A DNA stretch of 64,000 bases from Hypomesus transpacificus (lineage: Eukaryota; Chordata; Actinopteri; Osmeriformes; Osmeridae): contig NW_025813700.1 in assembly GCF_021917145.1 (NCBI RefSeq), positions 124,001 through 188,000 on the forward strand, in the 5' to 3' direction. A program made the position numbers and the translations under genes. Positions 7,331-64,000 of this stretch are shown in pieces (the stretch's first letter is position 1; the number at the start of each line of letters is the position of its first letter). The notes under the pieces are model-generated. The model was not told the DNA's origin. It was given only the letters and a program-made list of their open reading frames with translations, and did not search any database.

Positions 7331-8181
7331 TATGGTGATGTACAATTAGTGCAAGTAGAGAGAACAGCAAAATATAACGGTGTCAACGGTTTTTACTCTC
7401 CACACGAAGCATCTTTAAGGTTTTCCTTAAAAAATAAATAGATTGTTTGGTCCATAGTATGCCAAGGTTAACCAAACTGACAACAGAACATTGATTTTGT
7501 CTTAATAATGTGACGATAAAGGTCTGTTTCAAAATCCTCAATCCAGGTTTATAAAGACGTATTTCCGCTGCCAAACGTAATTAGATTCATAAATGTTGTA
7601 TCTCTTAAAAAAATACATATTGCTGTGCAGGCTGTTTGATAAAAATATCTCTATTTACATTTGCCTGAGTGATGTACTGATTGTGCACATACGTACAACC
7701 AATGATCAAGGACTACACATGTAGTCACAGTATTAAAAAATATCTTAATATCAGTGAAACAATAACATAATCTCAACTACAATATTCCATAACTCATCTG
7801 ATAAGACAGTGATACAACAACATCATCTTGTCAAGTAAAACATTGTAAACACACAGAGGTACAGTCTGTGTTTCAAGACAGTGCAACAAGAAGATATGTA
7901 CAAAATACAACATTCACAAAAATGTACAGTTACAAGATTTATCATGAAGTACAGTGCTTTTAAAAGGAGCCTGGGTGCCCAATTATCATACTTGTAAACA
8001 ACAAGACCAGATTTTGATTCATTTATGCAAACAAATGCTAAAAAAGTACTTTCTTCCTTGTTTGGCTACAGTTGACCATTTACTGCTTTTTTCAAACAAG
8101 ATCCCTCTATTCAAGACATCTAAACCCATTTAAAGCTATTGAATTAAGAAACACGTATCTTTGTCTCTCCACCCGACACAC

Positions 8182-8363
8182 AATGTTGCAGCAACATACT
8201 GGCAATGTTGCAGCAACATACTGGCAATGTTGCAGCAACATACTGGCAATGTTGCAGCAACATACTGGCAATGTTGCAGCAACATACTGGCAATGTTGCA
8301 GCAACATACTGGCAATGTTGCAGCAACATACTGGCAATGTTGCAGCAACATACTGGCAATGTT
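8182..8363. repeat. 22-bp tandem repeat with a palindromic core
   Basis: Eight to nine copies of a 22-base unit, almost perfect. Each contains TGTTGCAGCAACA, whose arms TGTTGC and GCAACA are exact inverted repeats around one base. The array starts about 90 bases downstream of the CARD exon stop codon, so it should lie in that gene's 3' UTR. The transcript would carry a row of short hairpins. The array also creates spurious open frames in several phases. Confidence 0.95.
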
Positions 8364-8455
8364 GCTACAACGCTGGGTGTCAACTTACCCGGGTATTTTG
8401 CATAACCTGCTATCTGAAATACCCTCCAGTTATATATACAAAACAAACATCCTAC

Positions 8456-8739
8456 TTACGAATCCATCATCAGTGACTCAATAAGGTTAGGATTGTGTGT
8501 CTGAAGCACTTTGAGAAACTCCCTTTCCACTTTTTCTCCCTTGAATCCGACGGCATCCAGCAGTTCCCTTGTTCGTTGTTGATCAACTTTTATGGCCTTG
8601 ATGTTGGAGTACTGTTCGTTGCTGATTATTTTTTGTGAAAACAAAATATCAGCCATCGGTAATACATTTTTGGTATATTGTATGAGAGTAGCAAAGTGCT
8701 TCTCTACGAACCCTACTGGAGGAATTGTTGGCCCCTGGT
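8456..8739 (-). other. C-terminal CARD exon
   Basis: This 284-nt exon (2 + 282) encodes 93 residues with FVEKHFATLIQYTKNV, ISNEQYSNIKA, RELLDAV and FLKVLQTHNPNLIESLM. They line up with the six-helix CARD of NLRP1 and fish caspase-1/ASC partners (FVDxHRxxLIxRVxxV, LSxEQYxxVxA, LKExHPHLI). The acceptor CGCAG at 8740-8744 joins in phase to the 42-nt exon 9 (8862-8903), which is a short linker. The stop is TAA at 8456-8458. Confidence 0.85.
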
Positions 8740-11700
8740 CTGCGAATACCACAATATGTTAGTTTTTGTTTATAAAACACAGGTATAATATATAATTCAC
8801 AAGATAAGTATGTCATAATGGTAAACATTTAAATGGAAAAGGTATTTGTATATTGACTTACAATTATACGAGACATCACTCTCTCCTTGCATAAAGAGGT
8901 GATCTGAAAACAATTAAATTAAGTTAATTGGAGGATTTTGATATACAGAGAGTAACCAAAGACAACCCTTAAAATGATCAATTAACAACGACTGAACACT
9001 GAGAGACTGTCACTTTTTGCAGTCTTATTAAACAATCAAATACTAAACAGTCAAAATGTTCGTCTTGTATGTGTTACCTTGTTTTGTATCTTGATACTAT
9101 TCATTGCTTGATTCAATGACTAAGAAAACCTAAGGCACATACACACATTTTATATTCGGTATTCGTCATTTGTCCTATTGACTGAGACAGTAGTTCAAAA
9201 AGGAAACTTTAGATGGAAATAGCTGCATTACCGTATTTTACGGTAAATAAGCCGCACCCCTTCAGAATGTACAATTTATGTTTGTAAGTCTGAGTGCACG
9301 CCGCACCGGGATATAAGCCGCACTTTATAAATTCACAACGCCATCGTTGAACAATTCGCTTCGAAATATAAGCCACACAAGCACAAGAAAATTGTAAAAT
9401 TGGAGTACAAGCCGCGGCTTATTTTCCGTAAAATACGGTACTATAAAAGTGTTGTGGTTCAATACATTACTATAGAGAAAGAAATAAACTCAGATCCACA
9501 ATTTACACTTTTTTGGGGCAAATGAAGCCTGTGCAGGTGAAAACAAGATAGAATTAACTGAATAGAAATGGTTTGTTAGATCAGCATCTGTTTGTTTCTG
9601 ACCTTTATGAATGCTTGCTTTCCATACAACTTCCATTTCATGCTTCAACTCGAGAACAATGTCAGTGTTTAAATTCTCCAGACGAATCATAAAAAAGCTT
9701 GGTGTGGTGTTGGATGATCTCAACTTTATTCTCTGGTGAAAGAAAGTGATGGAGAATGTTCAAGACACAGACTTTAAACACTTTATATGCACAATGACAC
9801 TTTACCATATTTGCGCACTATGTTCCAAATTTGTATTTTTGTATTTTTATATTCATATTATAGCTATTTTATACTTATATTTTATTTTACATACATTTCC
9901 CCTTAGTATTAGTTAGTTAAACATTGTTAGACTTTGTACCTTTAGTATACTTAGACTTGTTTAAACTTACACCACTTATTAAGCTGTGTTCCTATGGATG
10001 CACCTTCCTGCCATAGTAAATTCCTTGTGTGTGCAAACTTTCATGGCGATTAAAACCCCTTCTGAAGCAATACATTTTAACTTGTAACTTTCAACAAAGT
10101 AGTGTTGTCAAATTGTAATCTCATATTGTTGACAAGACATGATGACATTTTGGAACCGAGAAGGCTCTGATGTCTAAAAACGAATCTAAATAAGGTCTAT
10201 TAGATGTTGTTCCATTGTACATCTAGTATCCAAAGATAAGAATTTTAGGCATGATGACCGTGTTGAAGTACAATATAAACTTGCTATAGAGATACAAGCT
10301 TAGTGACCTGCCACATTACTTATCATATAATAATACAATAATGAACATATAATAATAATAATAATAATGCAATATCATAAAATAATAGAATTTCTACCTC
10401 TGGAGTAACATGAGCTTTGCATGTGTTTTCCAAGCTGAACCAACTTTTTATCTTCAGGGATTTTTCTGGTCTTGGAACAAGGATCCTTTTACTTTTTTTT
10501 TCTTTTTCCTCTTGCTTCTCTACAGCCTGCAAAATCAGCAAGGGTTCACAGAAATAGTTGGACACGACTTTTCAAGAAGAAAGTTGGTCAAGTTAATCCG
10601 TTAGCATTAAGGCTTACACACTTAAATTTATCAATTCTGCATGCATAACATAGCTACTATTACTGCATTAATGGCCTGAATGTCTCAACAATCCATATCT
10701 GCATATGGCGGGTTGCGTGGTTCCTGACACTGGTACAAGGCCTTTCTGTTATTAATTAAAATGTGCATCTTACTGTTATTATAGAGCAAAAGTGCTGTTT
10801 ATATGAAGTCAACATTATTTTACCCAGCTCTCACCTCAACAAGAGACGGATCACTGGGAAACAGATATATACGTAGAATGTGTCCCGAGAGATAGATCAT
10901 AAGTTCACAGTGCACTTTATATTTCCCAAATCTCAAGAGAACACCTTTTGGAGAGAAGGAGGGTTGAAGAAGCTTGGCATGGCAACAGGTAGCTTCATCC
11001 ACTTTCTCAATAGATGTTCCACTTTCCTCCACATGCAGAATTCTCATTTCGCTCTTAAGGGAAGGGTTACTACCTTAAAAAATAAGATTGGAGAAACATA
11101 TATATTTTTAACAATGTTGCTGTGAGTTTGTATCATATTGTTTATTTATCTGATTTACATGCCTTCCCTTACTTAAACAGGCAAAATGTGGCAGATGGAT
11201 TTCTTCCAGTTGACCTGATTTAATAGTAATGTCCATTAATGGGCCACCTTGTATGTATTGCAATGTTTCCAAAAAAGGACTGTAGGTTGTCCAGTTGCAG
11301 TAGTGGTATTGAAGTGTGACATCACTCTTGCACACCCAGCGAAGACCAGAGGCTGTGCACTCATATTGCCCTCTTTGGTTCCAGTGACTAACAATAATTA
11401 AGAGAAAACAGTATGTTTCAATAGAAAATGTAATGATAAGATGCAATACAGGGTACTGTGGATCAAACTTTTCTCTGGGTTTATAATATTACTGTCAAGT
11501 TAACTATTAAAATCTAGCAGTAAATAAAATTACCAGTGTAATCTCACTCCTGCCTCTGTAATCACTATAGGGTTAACTTTAGTCCAATGGTTGGAGTCCT
11601 ATAGAAAAGCAATACAAAATTGCAATGATACATCAAGATTAGGCATCTGAGTTCAAAATATCAGCAAAAATAGTAGTATTTACCAACACAGACCTAGTTT

Positions 11701-14700
11701 TTTTTATTTAAGATTTTATACAGTAACTCACCTTTACAAGATCACAGGTGTCACATATTCTGGAAATATCTGACACTGGATAATCACAGTAGGAAAACAG
11801 CAATTTTAAGATTTGTTTTACACTGACCTTTTTAAGGTCAGGTCATTTGTACAGGTACTCACATTGGCTTTTTATAGCCTGTGAACAGGTCGTGGAATTG
11901 CTGCACCCACTATTGGTTTTCTCTATGGCTTTAATTATATAATATATGAAGTAAGCAACAGTACAGAAAACACTATGAGTATATTTACATTTCCTTTACA
12001 TAATCCCAACACAGTGTGTGACTCAGTATTGAGTTAGTCAAAACTTACCCATGTCGTTTTTGCTTGAAGTGGCCGGTTGAACTGGTTTTGACTGATGTTC
12101 TGTGCTGTACCTTATATTAAAAGCCATCAGGCCACTAATGTTGAAGCCCAGAAAAAATGAAATGACACCAGGCCTTGGCACACTGGCTTGTTTGTGGGGA
12201 CAAACCTCAATTTCTTGGCCTGCCACACATACAAATGTTTTATGGTCTCTGGAAACTCCTTGGACACGAAGTAGGATATCCTGAATAGATGTTTGTTTCA
12301 GCATATCCCCATCACTTCGTCTGCCAGTCTGACTTGTTTTCAGCTGTTCACGTATGTGGTCGAGCTTTGATTTGTGAACTAATTTATTCAATCCAGCACC
12401 TCTACCAAGGTAGAACAAGGGAACAAGTTCCCTAGATTGTAAGTAGATCTTGTATTTTTTCTCAAAAGCTTGCCTCATTGGTCCGACATACTTGTTAAGG
12501 TTGATGTTATTCTGTCCTTGCACATTTTCAGGCCAAAATAATAGCAAAACAAGCAGGTAAAACTCAGGGGTATGGTGTTTTGCCATATCTTCATCCATGA
12601 ATCTCTGAAGGATGGTTTTTAAATCTGTTAGGGGTACTCCCTCAGCTTCATTGCTTAGGATGATGTTGGCCAGGATGTAATTACAGGCAACATCTTCATC
12701 TTCAGGCATTCCTTGAAACAATTTTTTCCACAACTCAGTGATTTCATTCAAGCTTGATTGTTTGCCATTTTGATTGAGGATGGAGAACAATCCAGGAAAG
12801 GTGGATGCCCTTTTTTCTTTCAGCTTCTGTAGTGGTCCAGCATCTTCCTTACTCGACAAACTGGTGTACTTGCTGTAGCAATCCATAATTTCTGGCCTTA
12901 AGTATGGTGGCTCATTTTCTGAGTTCATTGGGTCTGAGTAAGTGAGGTAACTATCAAAAAATTCACATTTTGTATGAACCCCATCTTTGAGATCAGTGAT
13001 GACAGATTTGTACTTCGGTAGGTTTATGTTCTTTAACAGTTCTGTGAGCTGTTGGGATGAAATGGCATGTGTTAGAATATCTTTCCATTTTGGGTGAAGG
13101 TTTGTGAGTGAATCGTGGACAATTTTTGCAACTTGTAGATAGCCAAAAAGCCCTCTATTGTTGAACACTTTTGTGATGTTTTCATCCAACATGTTGTTCA
13201 CTTCCTTTTCTGCTAAGTCCTCTTCTTGTTTAAATGCATTGATGGCTTTCTCTGCAATGGTCAAAATGTCTTTCTCCTTTAGTCTTTTTATAGCTTTGTT
13301 CAGGTGGTTCTTGTGGACTTGTCCTAATGTATCAGCAATGAATGAATTGGTGGGCACTCTCTCTTTAGCTTTTAGAGCCCATTCCTCAGCCTTACCAAAG
13401 TCAGTTGTCCTGCTGTAGTAGAATCTAGCAAGTGATTGGGGGTAGAATGGGTCATATTTGAATGTCTCAGAAGCATTTTTCAACACAACTATACAAGTGC
13501 TGATGTCCTCGTTGTTTTCAATATCTATAATTAGCCTGGAAAACCTTTCTTTGCCATCAGCGGTTCTCTCTCTCTTGGTGAGCAGGTCCTTGAAGAACTG
13601 CAAAAGTGATGGTTGGATTTGTTTTCTGCATAGATACTGCAAAAACTTCAGTGTGGCTGTGCTTCTTTTAACACCAATATCAGCCAATAACTCAACAAAC
13701 TGATGTGCAAGAACTGGGTGTGCAATGCGGACACACTTGTATTTGCCACCTTGTTTAGAGAATGTAACAATAAACTGTCTGAAAGGCTGAATAATCTCTT
13801 CAAATGATAGGCCTCGATCATCAGCACAAAAATTATTGTGGAAAGATTCACAAACTGACTGTAAAAGATAGGAGCCAGGGACATATGAACATATCAGGGC
13901 AATAAATGCAAAGAGTTTAGTCCTGTGAGATGATTTGTTTCTTTTAAGGTATCCAATCATTTCTTTCCCATCATTTGAACACATTATACTTTCCACATGC
14001 CCTCTATCAAAATTGTGTCGGATTATATCAAAGCTATGAAAACGTCCTGGCTGTTCTCTGTGGTGGCTTTGAATGTGTTTTTCTTTGGCAGCAAAGTAGC
14101 CTTCTTCTTTGGTAGTGAGTTCTGAGCATAAGGAGACATCATCATGGTCATCCGAAATAAAGATCATGCGTTTGCATTTTAAAATGATGACAACGGGGAT
14201 GTTGGCATTTATCTCCTGTTCTGCTATTTCTTTGATGATGCTCTCTTGTAAAGAGTATCTCGTGTGTTCATTGTCTTGGAGAAGCAGTACAGTAGTCTGG
14301 TGGTTAAGTCCACCCTCTTTGAAAAGTTGAATGACTTGTTTGGCAATAGTTCTAGTATCTAAGAGAGGATCTTTTTGTACTGGTTTGCCAGTGACCAATT
14401 TGTCACAGGAAGGGTCTATAAGGACGGCACACCTAAGCTTTTTTCTTAGATCCCACAGTACTTGCATTGCCAGAGTCGTCCCACCAGTACCTGGTTGGTG
14501 CAAAAGCTTTGTGGCAGTGACACTCAAATCTGCTTGTAGCTGAAATTTGATTTGTTTTATCAACCTTTTATAACCCTCTCTCTTGATGTGATGTGTCGCC
14601 TGTTCTTCAGCCGTTGAAGATTCGTTAATATCACCCAGATAAAAGTTCATCCAAGTTGGTGGAGCCCCCTTGTAAAAATCGGATTCTGCCTTCAAAGCTT

Positions 14701-14839
14701 CCGCAGATTCAATTTGCTCACCTTCAAACTGATTTGCACATAATATGTCTAAAAACGAAAGAGATTCTCTGAATTCACTCTTCAGAGGTATTTCACCCCC
14801 TCCTTCTGTGGGCAGGGTTGGAGTATCCGTTGCAGCCAT
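8456..14839 (-). CDS. SAMD9-like NTPase fused to FIIND (ZU5-UPA) and CARD; predicted inflammasome-type sensor
   Basis: Ten exons, listed 5' to 3' on the minus strand: 14839-12049, 11922-11863, 11775-11732, 11598-11534, 11387-11173, 11073-10835, 10526-10398, 9732-9603, 8903-8862, 8739-8456. All have GT/AG borders and compatible phases, giving 3999 nt and 1332 residues. Residues 1-930 match the C-terminal half of SAMD9/SAMD9L. They include the family's lysine-less P-loop HQPGTGGTTLA at 114-124, a hydrophobic strand VLLLQDN near 174, TPR-like helices around 460-515 (QSLARFYY, DTLGQVHK), and an OB-like end at about 850-912 (RPGVISFFLGF). The SAM, AlbA and SIR2-like parts of full SAMD9 are absent. 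Residues 951-1224 form a FIIND, and 1247-1330 a CARD. The start ATG has A at -3 and G at +4. SAMD9 proteins are antiviral, growth-restricting factors. FIIND-CARD tails in NLRP1 and CARD8 are freed by N-terminal degradation and activate caspase-1. Using both in one protein is my inference. Two separate genes are possible but less likely. Confidence 0.85.
9231..9438. mobile_element. MITE with 27-bp terminal inverted repeats, TA duplication
   Basis: The left end CCGTATTTTACGGTAAATAA and the right end reading inward TTATTTTCCGTAAAATACGG are near-perfect inverted repeats, flanked by TA on both sides (9229-9230 and 9439-9440). The inside repeats the word AAGCCGC and has no coding capacity. It lies in the intron between the last UPA exon and the short linker exon. 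A Tc1/mariner-type target (TA) is suggested, but the family is not certain. Confidence 0.75.
9603..11775 (-). other. FIIND module (ZU5 + UPA) with intact autoproteolysis site
   Basis: Exons 3 to 8. The ZU5 half opens with SDISRICDTCD and GVRLH, then YECTASGLRW and GGPLMDITIKSG, and closes with EEIHLPHFACL. This is the pattern of fish FIIND proteins. Exon 6 holds RILHVEESG and then LLQPSFSPKGVLLRF. Numbered on the full model, the cut would fall between F1098 and S1099, and H1072 lies 27 residues before S1099. In human NLRP1 the pair is H1186/S1213 and in CARD8 H270/S297, both 27 apart. The UPA half runs through exons 6, 7 and 8 (YKVHCELMIYL, AVEKQEEKE, FFMIRLENL). Cleavage would leave a non-covalent N fragment and a 234-residue UPA-CARD fragment. 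Confidence 0.85.
12049..14839 (-). other. Exon 1: SAMD9-like NTPase-TPR-OB module (930 codons)
   Basis: A single 2791-nt exon carries the whole SAMD9-like part, as is usual for SAMD9 and SAMD9L, whose coding sequence is one exon. It ends in a phase-1 donor, ATGG followed by GTAAGT, at 12049/12048. If the intron is retained, the frame adds only Lys-Phe and stops at 12038-12040, which would give a 933-residue SAMD9-like protein without FIIND or CARD. The last about 20 residues before the donor (rich in Ser, Pro, Gln, Thr) look like a linker. Confidence 0.85.
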
Positions 14840-16044: not shown

Positions 16045-19000
16045 TCAGAACACGTCACAAAGGCAGTCCTCCATGGCCTGGAGCTCCTGCAGTTCGGGGC
16101 AGTGTTCTCCAGAGTGGAGGGAGAGGAGGCGCCTGGCTCTGGGGATGATGGAGAGAGCGGGGGCAGGACACCCTCTGGTCAGGTGACCCCCAGGAAGGAC
16201 AGAGGCACAAGAAAGACAGTTTGAGTCGTCATCGGCACAGAAACCTGGGGAGTCAGGTGTCTGAGCGGTTAGGGAATCGGGCTAGTAATCAGAAGGTTGC
16301 CGGATCGATTCTCAGGCTGTGCCAAAAGACGTTGTGTCGTTGGGCAAGGCACTTCACCCTACTTGCCTAGGGGGGGAATGTTCCTGTACTTACTGTAAGT
16401 CACTCTGGATAAGAGCGTCTGCTAAAATGACTAAATGTAAATGTAGAAACACACTAAATCACCCAAACAAGTAAAAAACAAATACACCAAAACGACTATT
16501 ATCTCTACTTTACAGCCTCAGTTGGATATGAATAAGAACCGAGGGATCTTTTCCTCAAGGGAATGAGAGGTGAGCACACACCCGTTGAAGTGCAGCTGGG
16601 CCAGTTTGAAGAGCTGACGTCCCACTTCGATGCTGTCCTCTCCATACTGGGAACCCACCGCTACCACGCTCCTCTCAAGCTGGGAGGCAGCCCGTCGCCA
16701 GTCGCCTACACACACACACACAGAACAAAGTCACTACTAGACACACACACACACGTACAAGCACAGAGCAGTCACTACACACACACACACACACACACAA
16801 CACAGTCACTACACACACACACAACACAGTCACTGCACACACCCACCCAGGCACATACATAAACACACACACAAGCGCACACACACTCAGTTCTCACCCA
16901 TTGTGGCGTACGCTCGGGCCTTAGCGTCCGCCAGCTGCCCCTGTAGTGGGTGAGTCTCTCCCAGGAACAGACCAGACCGAGGCCCCGCCCTCTGTAAAAC
17001 CCCCAGGGCCTCATCTGAGACAGGGGGAGGGAGAGAGAGAGGGGGAGAGAGGAGGGGGAGGGAGAGAGGAGGGGGGAGAGACGGGAGGTGGATGGAAGGT
17101 AAGATAGAACACACATGTTGGAAGATCAACTGGTATACCAACCCCTGGTTACATTAATTAAAACCACTGCAAACAGGGTCAGATGGCTGAGCGGTTAGGG
17201 AGTCGGGCTATTAATCAGAAGGTTGCCGGTTTGATTCCCCTCCGTGAAAATGACGTTGTGTCCTTGGGCAAGGCACTTCACCCTATTTGCCTCGGGGAGA
17301 ATGTCCCTATACTTACTGTAAGTCGCTCTGGATAAGAGCGATGACTAAATGTAAATGTAAATGCAAACCACTGCACCCAAACAACAAACACACCCACGCA
17401 CACACCTGGCCTGTCTTCCTCCATGAGTTCCACAGCCTTCTCCAGCCGAGCCTTGACCTCCTTCAGCACGAAGTCCAGCTCCACCCCAGACACACGCTGA
17501 CCGCAAAGACACACACACCACGCTCCGCCGTCCTTAGTGAGAGGCTGAAACACACACACACGCCTGAGTCATTTTCTTGCGAAAGAACAAGTGTATCCAC
17601 TACTTCAGGGATGATCGTCAACGTGATCACTCACCTTTAGAGTCTCCTGGCACTTCCCACACTTTAACCCCGTGTCTGACCCCGACCTTTCACCCCTGAC
17701 CTCTGAATCCTCCTCCAGGCTGCAGGCCTCACAGGCGCACAGGAAGTAGTACTGCTCCTGCAGGAGGCGCCGGCGCTCCGACACCTTCATCCTGCTGCTG
17801 TGAGGCCCTGCGAGGGACGAGGGAGAGGAGGAGGTCAACAGGACTACAACAGGAAGACTACAACAGGAAGACTACAACAGGAAGACTACAACAGGAAAAC
17901 TACAACAGGAAGACTACAACAGGAAGACTACAACAGGAAGACTACAACAGGAAGACTACAACAGGGAGTACATGCTGCCACCTACTGACAAGTAAAAACG
18001 GATACAAAAGAGGCTTGCAGGAAAAGGCACAGATAATCAAACAGACAGTAAAACAGCCAGTCAGACAGTAATTCAAACAGCCAGTAACACAGCCAGTCAG
18101 ACAATAATTCAAACAGACAGTAAAACAGCCAGTCAGACAATAATTCAAACAGACAGTAAAACAGCCAGTCAGACAATAATTCAAACAGCCAGTAAAACAG
18201 CCAGTCAGACAATAATTCAAACAGACAGTAACACAGCCAGTCAGACAGTAATTCAAACAGACAGTAACACAGCCAGTCAGACAGTAATTAAAACAGCCAG
18301 TAACACAGCCAGTCAGACAGTAATTCAAACAGACAGTAACACAGCCAGTCAGACAGTAATTCAAACAGACAGTAAAACAGCCAGTCAGACAGTAATTCAA
18401 ACAGCCAGTAAAACAGCCAGTCAGACAATAATTCAAACAGACAGTAAAACAGCCAGTCAGACAGTAATTCAAACAGACAGTAACACGGCCAGTCGGACAG
18501 TAATTCAAACAGACAGTAACACAGCCAGTCAGACAGTAATTCAAACAGACAGTAAAACAGCCAGTCAGACAGTAATTCAAACAGCCAGTAAAACAGCCAG
18601 TCAGACAATAATTCAAACAGACAGTAAAACAGCCAGTCAGACAGTAATTCAAACAGACAGTAACACGGCCAGTCGGACAGTAATTCAAACAGACAGTAAC
18701 ACAGCCAGTCAGACAGTAATTCAAACAGACAGTAAAACAGCCAGTCGGACAGTAATTCAAACAGCCAGTAAAACAGCCAGTCAGACAATAATTCAAACAG
18801 ACAGTAAAACAGCCAGTCAGACAGTAATTCAAACAGACAGTAACACGGCCAGTCGGACAGTAATTCAAACAGACAGTAACACAGCCAGTCAGACAGTAAT
18901 TCAAACAGACAGTAAAACAGCCAGTCGGACAGTAATTCAAACAGCCAGTAAAACAGCCAGTCAACCAGCCAGACCTCTTCTGACCATAGCAGTGCAGGAT

Positions 19001-39174: not shown

Positions 39175-42100
39175 TCAGGCCAGGGCAGGGTTGGGGCTCT
39201 CCTCCTCCCCTGGGATGAGAGCCTCCGTCTCCTTGGCCTCCCCGGCCTCCTCCGGCCCCAGCAGTGCCACTGCCCTGTGGGCGAGGACAGACAAGAACAC
39301 GCGGCCAATGAGAAAGCAAGGAAAGAAAAACAGAAGCGTGCAGATGGGTGTTGGGTTCCAAACCTGTTTGAACAGGCAGAAGTGTGCAGATGGGTGTTGG
39401 GTTCACACCTGTTTGAACATACAGTGTCGTTAATGAGGTATGGGCTGTGAACCAGGCAGACGGCCAACGCCGATACTCTCCTCCGCGTGACTGCTACCTC
39501 GCTCAGGAGCCCTCACATGCTGTCGGGCCCTTTACTTCCCTGCTGACTCAGCATATTCTGTGCACTCTCACGCAACATCGATATATGCTTAAGCTGTGTC
39601 TCAGAGCCTGGTCCTAAATGGTCAAGTTTCTTCTATTCTACGAGTTTCCTCCAGGTGGCCTTCCTTTGTTAGCTTTGCTTGAGCTATACCGATAGTTAAT
39701 AGACAGCTTCTGACAAAGATGTTCAGTTTTTTTTTTATTTATTGTATCCTGTTATGTCTGGTTTAAAAGTTCAAATTGAGAGAGGAAAAGAAGAGCTGTA
39801 TAGCTCAGCCATCATTACTGGTGTCAATGTAGATTGAGAAAAGGGAAGAAGGGAAGGAGGAGATGAGACTATTGAGAGGTCACGGAGGCTAGAGGTGAGG
39901 AATGCAGACATGCCCCCTTTCCTGAGTCCTCAGACCATAGCTGGCATGACAAGGCATTTTATTGTGTTGCTCAAATGGTTCACACACACACACACACACA
40001 TCTAAACAAACACGGAGCATGACTCGTCGGTTTGGTTTGAAGCTGAAAATAGCCCTGAGCTATTCCCAGATTAAGATTGATGATCTAGAAATGGAGCCCA
40101 GACCGTGTCTATACAACTACATCGACAAGTCCAAACTGGTCCTAGACCAGAACTTACTCTTGAATGTTTTTGCCAAACATGGTCCCAGATTTGGGTCAGG
40201 GAGATTTCCCAATCACATGAGACGTCAGGTGTGCAGTAGAACTATCGGTCACTTAGGCTCATTGGTCACACGACACACAAGGCATTTTCATTGCACCCAT
40301 GGGATCTCTAACACTGTGGTACTAAGACATCACTAAGCTAGAAACACTGTCAGGGTGCATTGATTTGACCCTACCGAACACACACACACACACACCAAAG
40401 AAGACGAAACTAGTGCGAACGCAGCAGCATAAAGCATTACTGATAACCCCCATCACATACCACACACGTTATCAGGACAACAGAGTTCTTTCGGAGTCCA
40501 AAACATATATCCTCTGGCCGGCGACTCGGTAAAGCAGTCCAATAGCAAGAGGAATGGCGAGGGGCCAGGGGCTAGACTCACCCCAGTAGTGCCATGGGGA
40601 CGAAGCACAGGCCGGACGCCAGCAGGAAGCTGAAGCCGGGGTACCAGGCCACGGTGGCGGCGTAGAGGCTGCTGAACACGGCGAAGGCCACGTTTCCGCT
40701 CAGGCTCTCCACAAAGGCCACACATGCAAAGAGGGCCCCTGCATAGGGAGGCCAGGATGACACACACACACAGCATGTAGACACACACACAACATACACA
40801 CACACGCATAGGACATACACAGACACAGACCATATACACAGGAAAGAGAAAGAGAGGGGACTGTGAGACAAACGTCTATAACTGTGGTAGGCGTTATGTA
40901 AACGCTGTTTACATATCACGGGAGGGCTGTTGACTCAGCAAAAACATATGAATGTTTGCCAATATTCCACGATAGAAAAAATGCAATATGCATGCAGGTT
41001 GGTGAGAAACCTTTTAGTGTTGGATAAAGAATTCGATCTATTGAGCTCTTACCCAACAAAGGAACCATGTTCACTTGATATTAATGGTGAACAGACAAAC
41101 ATGTTGTGCAATGTGTAGATTTTTTAACAAAGCACCACTTGAAGTTTAGGCAGGCGGGAGGAGGAAATGTCATGCTGAACTGAACACCGGGAAAACCAGT
41201 TCTCTCATGTATAACTTTCATTTGATATCCACCAACGCTTGTCCTTTCAACATGTTCTGAAGTGGCTCTTTTCGAGTGGAGAGGTTTGGAAGTGGAGCTC
41301 TTGGGACATGCTGTACTGGCTGTGGACGAGCGAGGTTAAGAGACAAACTCGCCCCCTCACCTTGCTCGGCCTTTGACACGATCTTGGACATCATGGATCG
41401 CAGGACGGGGAAAGGCATGATAGCCAGGAGCATGGGAATCCTCACTGTGGAAAAGCAAACCAAAGAGTCACCCGGTTAAACCCCTCTATCGACCATTTAG
41501 CCTGGAGAGAACGTCATGGGCAATCGCTATCTTCAAATGTACACAGTGAAGAACCGACCGAAAGGTTTTTCAACAAATGATGGTCGTTGGCTCCAATTTG
41601 TTAACGCTAACAATAACAGGGTTTCTGATATGAGCCTCAATTTAATCTGTTCTTATCTTATCACCTTTCACAGTCAAGTAATCACATAATGCAATAGCAA
41701 CAAAAGCTCATAAACTTCACCAGAATGTGTAAATATGGCGGCTGGCCAGTGAGATTTATTAATCTGCTATGAAGTAAAATGGTGTTCATTTATTATCAAC
41801 ACTCGCAATATAAGATTATATTTTAAATCTACAATTTAGCAGAGTCTGTGTAGCAATTAATAGTTATTATCATATTACATCATATGTTTACATAATTCAG
41901 CACCTCATGTGACACTATCAACATCATTAAATGTACCTATCTAGTTGAATAAAGGTTGAATACCAAAATAATAGCAATTGATTCGTAATCGTACTGCAAC
42001 AATTTAGCAAATCGTTTATGCAGCTTCTGTTCCTTACCCAGGAACATCATGAGGGTGGTTTTGGCGAAGGCGACCAGCGCCATGCCAATCATCACGGACA

Positions 42101-44160
42101 GTATCCCTATCAGGATGATGACCAGGCTGGGCGTGCCGCAGCGCGAGAACACAGCCAAGCCCACGTAGCTGGTCAGGAACACCGTGGTGGCCAGCGCCGA
42201 GCCGTAGCCAATCAGGATCTCGTTCCAGCAGAGCGGCTCGTTCAGCTCGTAGAGCGTGATGTTGGAGAGCCCGCCCCTGTTGGCGAAGGAGAAGGTGGTG
42301 AAGACAAGGAGGAGGAGGACCAGGAGGGTGTTCCGCCTCCCGCTCCCCGCCGCAAACATCTGGAAGATGCCGGAAGCGAGCCTGCGGAACGCCGTGCAGC
42401 GAGGGGTCCCGTCCTCGGCGGCGGCGTCGTCGGGGGGTGCCTTCAACGTCTCCTCCAGGACGACGACGGCGTACAGCAGGTTGAAGCACTGGAAGACGGC
42501 GGACACGCAGAAGGGCCAGTTAAAGCCCGCCGCTCGCAGGAAGTATCCGGTCGACAGGGACGCCACGCCCGACAGCAAGCCGATCACCATGTCGATGGCC
42601 CCCATGCGCAGGGTCTTCTGCTGCCCGTCCTCACACAAGTCGGCGATGTAGGAGAAGCAGCCGCCAAGGAAGGTTCCGGAACCCCCGAACAGGGCGCTGA
42701 CCAGCGACGAGCCGATGAGGAGGTAGAGGTTGAGCTCGAAGAACGACACGGCCAGGAAGGACAGCGTGTAGATCAGAGAGCCGATCAGGGGCATGACGAT
42801 GGCGACCTTGCGCCCCCGACGGTCGCTGTAGGTCACCAGGATGAGGGTGACGACGAGGGAGGGGATCATGGAGAAGAGCTCGGTGTAGAGGGAGAAGAGA
42901 GAGGCGGCCTTCTGCACTTCCTAGGGACGAGCGACAACAACAAGCAGTGACACTTCTGTAGATAGGGTCTCCGGGGTCTATATCTAGGGGATGCAAACTT
43001 GTAGTTCATTATCTATTCACTCTTACCCTAACTAGTTGTTGGTCTGGCTTACGGTTAACGAAACCAGTGTGACCCAAAGGCTGTGAAAGCCCGAGCAATG
43101 GCCCGTGCAACACATCCCTCAACAGAAAAACCCCCACTGTCTTTACTTATACAAAATCTGGTTTAGTTACACAAAAAGAAGAAGTATAACGGAAGAAAAA
43201 TGGAAGTGTTGTGAAATGTCGATTTGTATTTAACAGCAAATGGACAAAAATAATAGTTCTACAGAAAGGGAAACAAGCCTTCCTCTACACCTAAACAGAT
43301 GCTTGAGGTCCATTTTCAAATCTAAGCTACATTACACAACAAAGTACACCTGGTTAAATATATACACCTGTTTATACATGGTTTCATACATGTTGGAACA
43401 CGTCACGTGGGATCATTCTGTGTATCTCTCTACAAATGCATGTGACTTCATCCATGTGGTCAGAGCTAAACCAGAAGAAATATAAGCTTACAGTATCGAT
43501 TCATAGCTTCATACAAGTCAGACCTGTACCTTGGACATCATATGCTTCCATTTACTGCTAATAGAAAAGTTTAGTTATAGCGCTGCTGTGGCATCTTATC
43601 AATGCCTGTTTGTCCTCAGTAGAATCTAATAATGCAGACTGAACGAGGCATAAAACCCTTTATAACTTATTTTTATAGTTGATGGTGTTGTGCTGGATAA
43701 GACCTGGATGTGGGACGTCCTCAGTGCTGATATATCAGACCAATGAATAAGCATGTTCATTTATATATGTGTCCTTTATGGCTGACGCTATGGGTGAGCA
43801 GAGATGCTGACAAGCACACGTTAATGTGTTCAGGAACTGCTGAATTGACTCTTTTTCAAATCCACGCAAAAAACATCTAACAAGAACATGTACTTTTACT
43901 TATTTACGTGAATTTGCCCCCTTCATAACTGATCTACAGATAGATATATAACCGATCCACGGTTTATGGCAAACCTCATGGTGACTTGAGTGGTTGCTGG
44001 CGTTTGCAGAACATCTGGAGGTGTTGTCCGAGACAGGGTAGGTGGTGTTGGTCAACTCTTGCCATAGTCGCCTATACACATACTGTGGCACCAGTGGATA
44101 GACCAAAAAACTTGCAAAGCCGTAGAAAGCAACAAGGGGCTCCACCAAAAATAGTCCCAT
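39175..44160 (-). CDS. slc46a3: SLC46A3-like lysosomal/plasma-membrane MFS transporter
   Basis: Five exons on the minus strand: 44160-43975, 42920-42038, 41444-41361, 40738-40582, 39274-39175. Phases agree, giving 469 residues (human SLC46A3 about 461). The start MGLFLVEPLVAFYGF parallels human MKILFVEPAIFLSAF. The in-frame codon upstream at 44176 is TTG, so 44158-44160 is the start. After membrane segment 1 come PQYVYRRLW and a luminal loop with several N-glycosylation sites (NTT, NTS, NAS, NHS). Then follow the MFS signature-like YSDRRGRKVAI, the conserved YELNEPLCWNEILIGYGSAL, RSMMSKIVSKAEQG, and ATVAWYPGFSFLL. A short acidic cytosolic tail (EALIPGEEESP) ends the protein. The human family member SLC46A3 acts at lysosomes, and reported cargo includes muropeptides and antibody-drug catabolites. 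SLC46A1 and A2 are alternatives, but the C-terminal motifs fit A3 best. The gene faces away from synj1. Confidence 0.85.
39338..39423. repeat. Short tandem duplication in the transporter's last intron
   Basis: GTGCAGATGGGTGTTGGGTT followed by CCTGTTTGAACA occurs twice, about 44 bases apart, just upstream (minus strand) of the last exon. Confidence 0.85.

Positions 44161-46447: not shown

Positions 46448-64000
<17,553 letters not shown>

Follow-up and report, generated by a model that had tools for sequence, protein, structure and literature searches.

A SAMD9-like core joined to a FIIND-UPA-CARD tail in the smelt Hypomesus transpacificus and other fishes, a candidate cytosolic sensor

In the smelt Hypomesus transpacificus, a stretch of 64,000 nucleotides (contig NW_025813700.1, positions 124,001 to 188,000 of the forward strand; here called the window, in whose numbering coordinates are given) carries a gene of ten exons on the minus strand, from 14839 to 8456, whose joined frame of 1332 residues has its sole stop at the end and unites a SAMD9-like core with a C-terminal FIIND-UPA-CARD tail of the kind found in NLRP1 and CARD8. 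We lean slightly towards reading it as a cytosolic, inducible sensor that arose by effector swap, in which the SAMD9 core would have been kept, the N-terminal SAM/tRNase/SIR2-like part would have gone, and FIIND-CARD would serve as the output. What is new here is that the complete layout keeps its cleavage chemistry, that the tRNase part has been lost cleanly, and that the effector-swap reading can be tested. The preliminary description of this DNA knew of no described protein with this layout, a statement now superseded, as a paper of 2017 had already described FIIND and CARD in SAMD9 proteins of fishes and many such fish proteins are present in databases. In the accessible part of its text, the 2017 paper classes FIIND as a DEATH-superfamily domain, does not spell out the exact domain order and leaves self-cleavage unmentioned. 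It was the only paper on SAMD9 with FIIND found among open-licence PMC papers, and none was found there on si:ch73-252p3.1, the name borne by several salmonid and other homologues, or on the cryo-EM structures of human SAMD9.

When the exons were rebuilt from the window, the ten exons, the GT/AG borders (nine of nine introns), the matching phases and the frame without internal stop given by the preliminary description were reproduced, and its joining of a SAMD9-like exon to ZU5, UPA and CARD exons is supported by Pfam, human SAMD9 and NLRP1/CARD8 matches, with the same order in homologues. The nine introns sum to 2385 bases, and the parts of the gene are as follows.

12049..14839, minus strand: exon 1, start codon and SAMD9-like core (NTPase, TPR, OB), residues 1-930; single open frame with the human SAMD9 match
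11863..11928, minus strand: exon 2, optional cassette of 60 or 66 bases; acceptor 11922 (preliminary description) or 11928 (which fits a named isoform)
11732..11775, minus strand: exon 3, linker ahead of FIIND; 10 of 15 residues identical in P0001
11534..11598, minus strand: exon 4, linker and start of ZU5, from the rebuilt frame, Pfam and alignment
11173..11387, minus strand: exon 5, FIIND (ZU5), with HLPH at residues 1051-1054; PF13553, matched by the genome-wide FIIND search
10835..11073, minus strand: exon 6, end of ZU5 with predicted catalytic His1072 and F1098/S1099, and start of UPA, from the NLRP1/CARD8 alignment and homologue conservation
11035-11033, minus strand: codon of the predicted catalytic His1072, placed from the gene model
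10957-10952, minus strand: codons of F1098|S1099, placed from the gene model
10398..10526, minus strand: exon 7, UPA; Pfam PF23679, residues 1112-1221
9603..9732, minus strand: exon 8, UPA; Pfam PF23679
8862..8903, minus strand: exon 9, linker from UPA to CARD; 12 of 14 residues identical in P0001
8456..8739, minus strand: exon 10, CARD and stop codon; PF00619, 47 of 94 residues identical in P0003

Judged by its sequence, exon 2 is cassette-like; its skipping keeps the frame and gives 1312 aa, and 2 of its 20 residues are aligned in the Osmerus orthologue P0001 and 4 in P0003, with none identical. When acceptor 11928 is used and intron 2 is retained, the translation of 958 aa equals letter for letter P0002, an isoform named for Hypomesus transpacificus, and because of this exact identity the first junction, placed at 12049^11922 in the preliminary description, is probably 12049^11928. 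Since exon 2 can be skipped and has two candidate acceptors, the full-length options are 1312, 1332 or 1334 residues.

In the core, residues 8-910 are matched to solved human SAMD9 chains between chain residues 492 and 1448 (E about 1e-73); this E-value, like those of the tail domains given below, lies far outside what chance would give. The P-loop of the core, HQPGTGGTT at 114-122, has GGT replacing GKT and keeps the upstream His, and a GGT/S P-loop in place of GKT/S with an upstream His is described for the SAMD9 family (PMC5445408; papers are cited by PMC number for what their accessible excerpts state). The label NTPase needs care, as with GGT in its P-loop the smelt core may bind nucleotide without hydrolysing it. 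R224 corresponds to Arg837 of SAMD9, whose R837A change is termed loss of function in a PDB entry title, and R685-G686 maps to K57-G58, both correspondences having been drawn by eye from printed alignments. An AlphaFold2 model of P0001 (1170 aa, CARD absent, mean predicted local distance difference test score 80) was matched by Foldseek to SAMD9 9zjr with an E-value of 1.5e-39. Pfam gave no NACHT or LRR match in the smelt protein, the nearest being a sub-threshold NACHT-N-terminal-helical match (E 0.057).

In human SAMD9, the NTPase is preceded by SAM, AlbA/tRNase and SIR2-like parts, and the tRNase is the effector (PMC13245274). Some members of the SAMD9 family have lost the AlbA_2/tRNase or the SIR2-like domain, and SAM is found in vertebrate members, though not in every one. 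The smelt protein has only 7 residues ahead of its core, whose match begins at human chain residue 492. No Pfam match to the SAM domain was found in it up to E 10, and tblastn gave no significant match to an AlbA_2/tRNase or SIR2-like part in the window or within 10 kb to either side when the N-terminal regions of four paralogues were used as queries (best E 0.60); the silence of Pfam on the tRNase domain is uninformative, as Pfam also misses this domain in the C4 paralogue, where phmmer finds it. The match of that paralogue to SAMD9 spans chain residues 19-489 and takes in the chain 7ksp, of 230 residues (E 4e-30), which is taken as the tRNase domain (residues 156-385 according to PMC13245274). 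The paralogue belongs to a set of five further SAMD9-like loci in the same genome, besides a short fragment on C30; four of the loci have about 490-500 residues ahead of the core and one (L029) about 265, in fetched stretches that ended 1500 bases before the match. Among SAMD9-like homologues, for which counts here rest on the best 120 of 303 matches, with domains taken from a precomputed column and with isoforms and same-species paralogues included, 95 of 120 begin to match the core at their own first residues. N-terminal SAMD9 exons missed nearby were considered and ruled out by the null tblastn result and by these core-first homologues. On these searches, the tRNase and SIR2-like part is absent from the smelt gene, which starts where that part ends.

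The longer paralogues raise the question of whether the protein might be a regulator and not a sensor, with a tRNase-less core that mixes with them and restrains them and with a tail that is a by-product or a damper. Five such loci, four of them with the long N-terminal extension, would offer partners for this role, but the smelt core is only about 25-30% identical to its same-genome paralogues, which makes mixed oligomers doubtful, and the conserved tail would need another reason, so we regard this explanation as very improbable.

In the tail, FIIND (PF13553, residues 986-1108, E 1.5e-37), UPA-FIIND (PF23679, residues 1112-1221, E 2.6e-21) and CARD (PF00619, residues 1249-1328, E 1e-10) all lie above the curated Pfam cut-offs, the tail also aligns with chains of rat and human NLRP1 and CARD8, and the Osmerus P0001 model fits the rat NLRP1 FIIND 7crv_B with a TM-score of 0.76 by target. 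At the cleavage site, smelt PSFSPKG is aligned with PSFSPLG/PSFSPMG of NLRP1 (NPSFSP) and PSFSLMG of CARD8 (SPSFSL), and H1072 shares a column with the histidine of the NLRP1 'AHF', which we take to be H1186. The second serine of the SF/S site, Ser-297 of CARD8 and Ser-1213 of NLRP1, is essential for self-cleavage, and conserved Glu and His residues affect the processing of both proteins (PMC3210808). By alignment, the smelt FIIND keeps the residues required for NLRP1/CARD8 self-cleavage, namely H1072 and F1098|S1099, and cleavage there is predicted to give pieces of 125 kDa and 27 kDa.

These residues are widely kept in the 49 FIIND-bearing SAMD9-like homologues, which were aligned with MAFFT and are not all independent, since they include isoforms and same-species paralogues. 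The His column holds His in 45 of the 49 (among them P0011, a fragment end that is uninformative), F-S stands at the site in 38, and both occur together in 37, P0026 having F-S with a Lys in the His column. In 23 shorter FIIND proteins, the corresponding counts are 19 for His and 22 for F-S.

The layout looks like a real gene type and not a one-off. The 49 homologues with FIIND (PF13553) are drawn from the 120 listed, and 18 of them have CARD as well, the named species among these belonging to the genera Umbra, Esox, Oncorhynchus, Salvelinus, Coregonus, Siniperca, Seriola, Epinephelus, Channa, Pholidichthys, Sparus, Dicentrarchus, Menidia and Plectropomus; a separate homologue search adds the characins Colossoma, Metynnis and Astyanax. 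The search of fish proteins proposed in the preliminary description, for a SAMD9 core, FIIND and CARD in one protein, was thus successful. The same layout on separate contigs from many species ruled out a chimeric gene model or an assembly error. Like the smelt protein, P0003 (63% identity), Umbra pygmaea P0004 and Esox lucius P0005 (52% each) and Danio rerio P0047 (36%, with its CARD under the Pfam cut-off) have the core followed by FIIND-UPA-CARD, and in P0003, P0004 and P0005 the alignment with the smelt protein begins at residue 1. P0003 runs uncut for 1317 residues on a contig of 4474 bases, where its 3951 coding bases leave about 520 spare against the 2385 bases of the nine smelt introns, so the contig is probably a transcript that encodes the whole layout. 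For exon 1, 772 of 862 residues aligned between smelt and Osmerus are identical, and for exons 3-9 the count is 255 of 288; the two parts are equally conserved, as expected of a single protein under constraint. Within the smelt genome, no SAMD9 core was found at E 1e-3 in 14-kb stretches round eight further FIIND places (seven loci and a weak one on C6). FIIND-CARD tails also occur on NLRs, on GIMAP-type GTPases and on one caspase in clupeiform and other fishes.

Other arrangements occur as well. Danio aesculapii P0021 has a partial extra copy of the core at its N-terminal side and a C-terminal PYD where others have CARD, and Maylandia zebra P0008 has two SAMD9-like cores in tandem. Among FIIND proteins, Astyanax mexicanus P0144, of 814 residues, has two FIIND and two UPA stretches ahead of a single CARD, and Alosa pseudoharengus P0149 combines two FIIND stretches, UPA, a caspase (Peptidase_C14) and CARD, in effect joining a FIIND module directly to the protease.

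The histories of core and tail were followed in two FastTree trees with long branches, one of the core (122 rows, after 6 rows with a short core match were dropped) and one of the tail (133 rows, matches with under 150 aligned positions having been left out). In the core tree, FIIND-bearing members fall in several separated groups and the FIIND label needs 24 changes, which does not support a single monophyletic FIIND class; two starred clades lack any FIIND, one of 4 rows and one of 15 (13 with none, 2 with CARD only), and many of the rows labelled none are isoforms or fragments. In the tail tree, the SAMD9 label needs 11 changes, and the smelt tail groups with those of Osmerus, P0003, Esox, Umbra, one Salmo trutta SAMD9-like protein and five Coregonus NLRs. 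From these trees, the association of core and tail seems ancient in these fishes and to have been followed by losses or by repeated gains, and some tails have apparently been exchanged. The clearest case is Oncorhynchus masou P0007, whose core is close to that of the smelt gene and whose FIIND is very different, with DLS at the site, which suggests an exchanged and possibly uncleaved tail; P0006 likewise looks exchanged.

Compared with known systems, the smelt protein resembles human SAMD9/SAMD9L in its core, which runs from just past the SIR2-like part to OB with a GGT-type P-loop, the upstream His and the R837-equivalent Arg, but it lacks SAM, tRNase (AlbA) and SIR2-like parts and has FIIND-UPA-CARD added. 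It shares with NLRP1 a STAND-type middle, a C-terminal ZU5-UPA-CARD, the PSF|SP site and the aligned His, but it has a SAMD9 core where NLRP1 has NACHT-LRR, and it has no PYD. CARD8 likewise has ZU5-UPA-CARD with the self-cleavage motif; its N terminus is short and disordered, whereas a core of 930 residues occupies this position in smelt. Zebrafish Gbp3 and Gbp4 are immune GTPases drawn with CARD and FIIND, and Gbp4, with its C-terminal CARD, has an inflammasome role (PMC4932187); their core, on the other hand, is a GBP GTPase unrelated to that of SAMD9.

In the effector-swap reading, the protein would cut itself between F1098 and S1099, and the core-ZU5 and UPA-CARD pieces would stay together non-covalently. 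Upon infection, the core part would be degraded or changed in state, thus freeing UPA-CARD, which would oligomerise via UPA and CARD and recruit ASC and then an inflammatory caspase, leading to pyroptosis. Beyond the presence of the cleavage residues, we infer every one of these steps. UPA reportedly promotes CARD8/NLRP1 filaments and DPP9 reportedly restrains NLRP1 (PMC7794386, PMC8081665), and zebrafish NLRP1 signals via ASC, as its CARD cannot directly bind PYD-bearing caspases (PMC9978379). The preliminary description had already proposed that loss of the N-terminal part frees UPA-CARD, and this remains anatomically sound, with the fusion present in other teleosts and the cleavage residues kept. 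Of the triggers that it proposed, degradation of the SAMD9 part fits, but viral interference with it, as by poxvirus inhibitors, is weak, because the C7-family inhibitor M62 is reported to bind SAMD9 residues 1-385, that is SAM and tRNase (PMC13245274), a region missing from the smelt protein. Somewhat short of an even chance is given to the wider proposal of a separate old teleost class of releasable inflammasome sensors, in which a tRNase-less SAMD9 core would act as a guard, its degradation or activation upon infection would shed a pre-cut UPA-CARD, and the output would have switched from translation arrest to pyroptosis.

Several observations weigh against release as the working principle of the smelt protein. 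Conserved residues are no proof of cleavage, and F-S is absent in 11 of the 49 FIIND-bearing homologues; four of these are fragments or misaligned rows (P0011, P0025, P0059, P0092) and seven look real (P0007 DLS, P0027 TFT, P0029 IFL, P0043 EFF, P0048 ARS, P0050 IFH, P0079 HLS). Moreover, CARD occurs without FIIND in 12 of the 120 homologues listed, so that, judging by domain content, release is not the sole wiring of the core to CARD; in the three FIIND-less proteins tested (P0068, P0071, P0102), CARD lies C-terminal of the core. The seven real-looking changes and the FIIND-less proteins favour the main rival explanation, induced proximity without release, by which the core would oligomerise like other STAND proteins and cluster the attached CARDs, with FIIND cleavage dispensable or only tuning the response. 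Asymmetric human SAMD9 dimers, known from PDB entry titles, point the same way, but the retention of both catalytic residues in 37 of 49 members, in lineages far apart, is unexpected if cleavage is irrelevant, and we judge this explanation unlikely.

Other points against the effector-swap reading concern the transcript and its expression. The Osmerus model lacks CARD, with 17 of 94 exon-10 residues aligned and Osmerus in another frame there. P0002, the only protein named for H. transpacificus among the matches listed, stops in intron 2 before FIIND, and no full-length protein named for Hypomesus was found among the matches listed in three homologue searches. It could thus be argued that the main product is the 958-residue core isoform made by intron-2 retention, with which P0002 is identical, and that the FIIND-CARD exons are seldom used or have a start of their own, stand-alone FIIND-CARD proteins being present in other fishes. 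None of the 23 shorter FIIND proteins, however, is named for Hypomesus, and their identity is at most 47%. Full-length relatives are present in many species, the frame of P0003 is unbroken, and exons 3-9 equal exon 1 in conservation; this alternative appears improbable. Expression support for the effector-swap reading is thin and mixed: samd9l is among the type I interferon-induced genes of a salmonid cell line (PMC6612602), and a SAMD9L-like gene has the negative value -1.38 in a nodavirus table for sea bass (PMC10706053), the paralogue being unspecified in both.

Elsewhere in the window, a perfect 22-base tandem repeat of 8.4 copies at 8181-8365, whose unit contains the palindrome TGTTGCAGCAACA, starts about 90 bases past the stop codon of the gene and lies probably in its 3' untranslated region. 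A 36-base repeat of 26 copies (18029-18963) lies amid minus-strand frames at about 17.9-20.5 kb, which we take to be a SET/MYND (SMYD4-type) gene. The frames at 41937-42920 presumably encode a folate-transporter-type (SLC46) protein and those at 59114-60500 presumably belong to an inositol-phosphatase (synaptojanin-type) gene. Additionally, two UnaL2 LINE 3' elements occur at 52760-52813 and 55309-55362.

For the SAMD9 family in fishes, a nuclease-based reading would be wrong for the FIIND class with a short N terminus, the nuclease being missing. Coupling of UPA-CARD release to the SAMD9 core, if real, would make caspase activation a simple readout of what this core detects; functional degradation, familiar from NLRP1 and CARD8, would then extend to another type of sensor domain.

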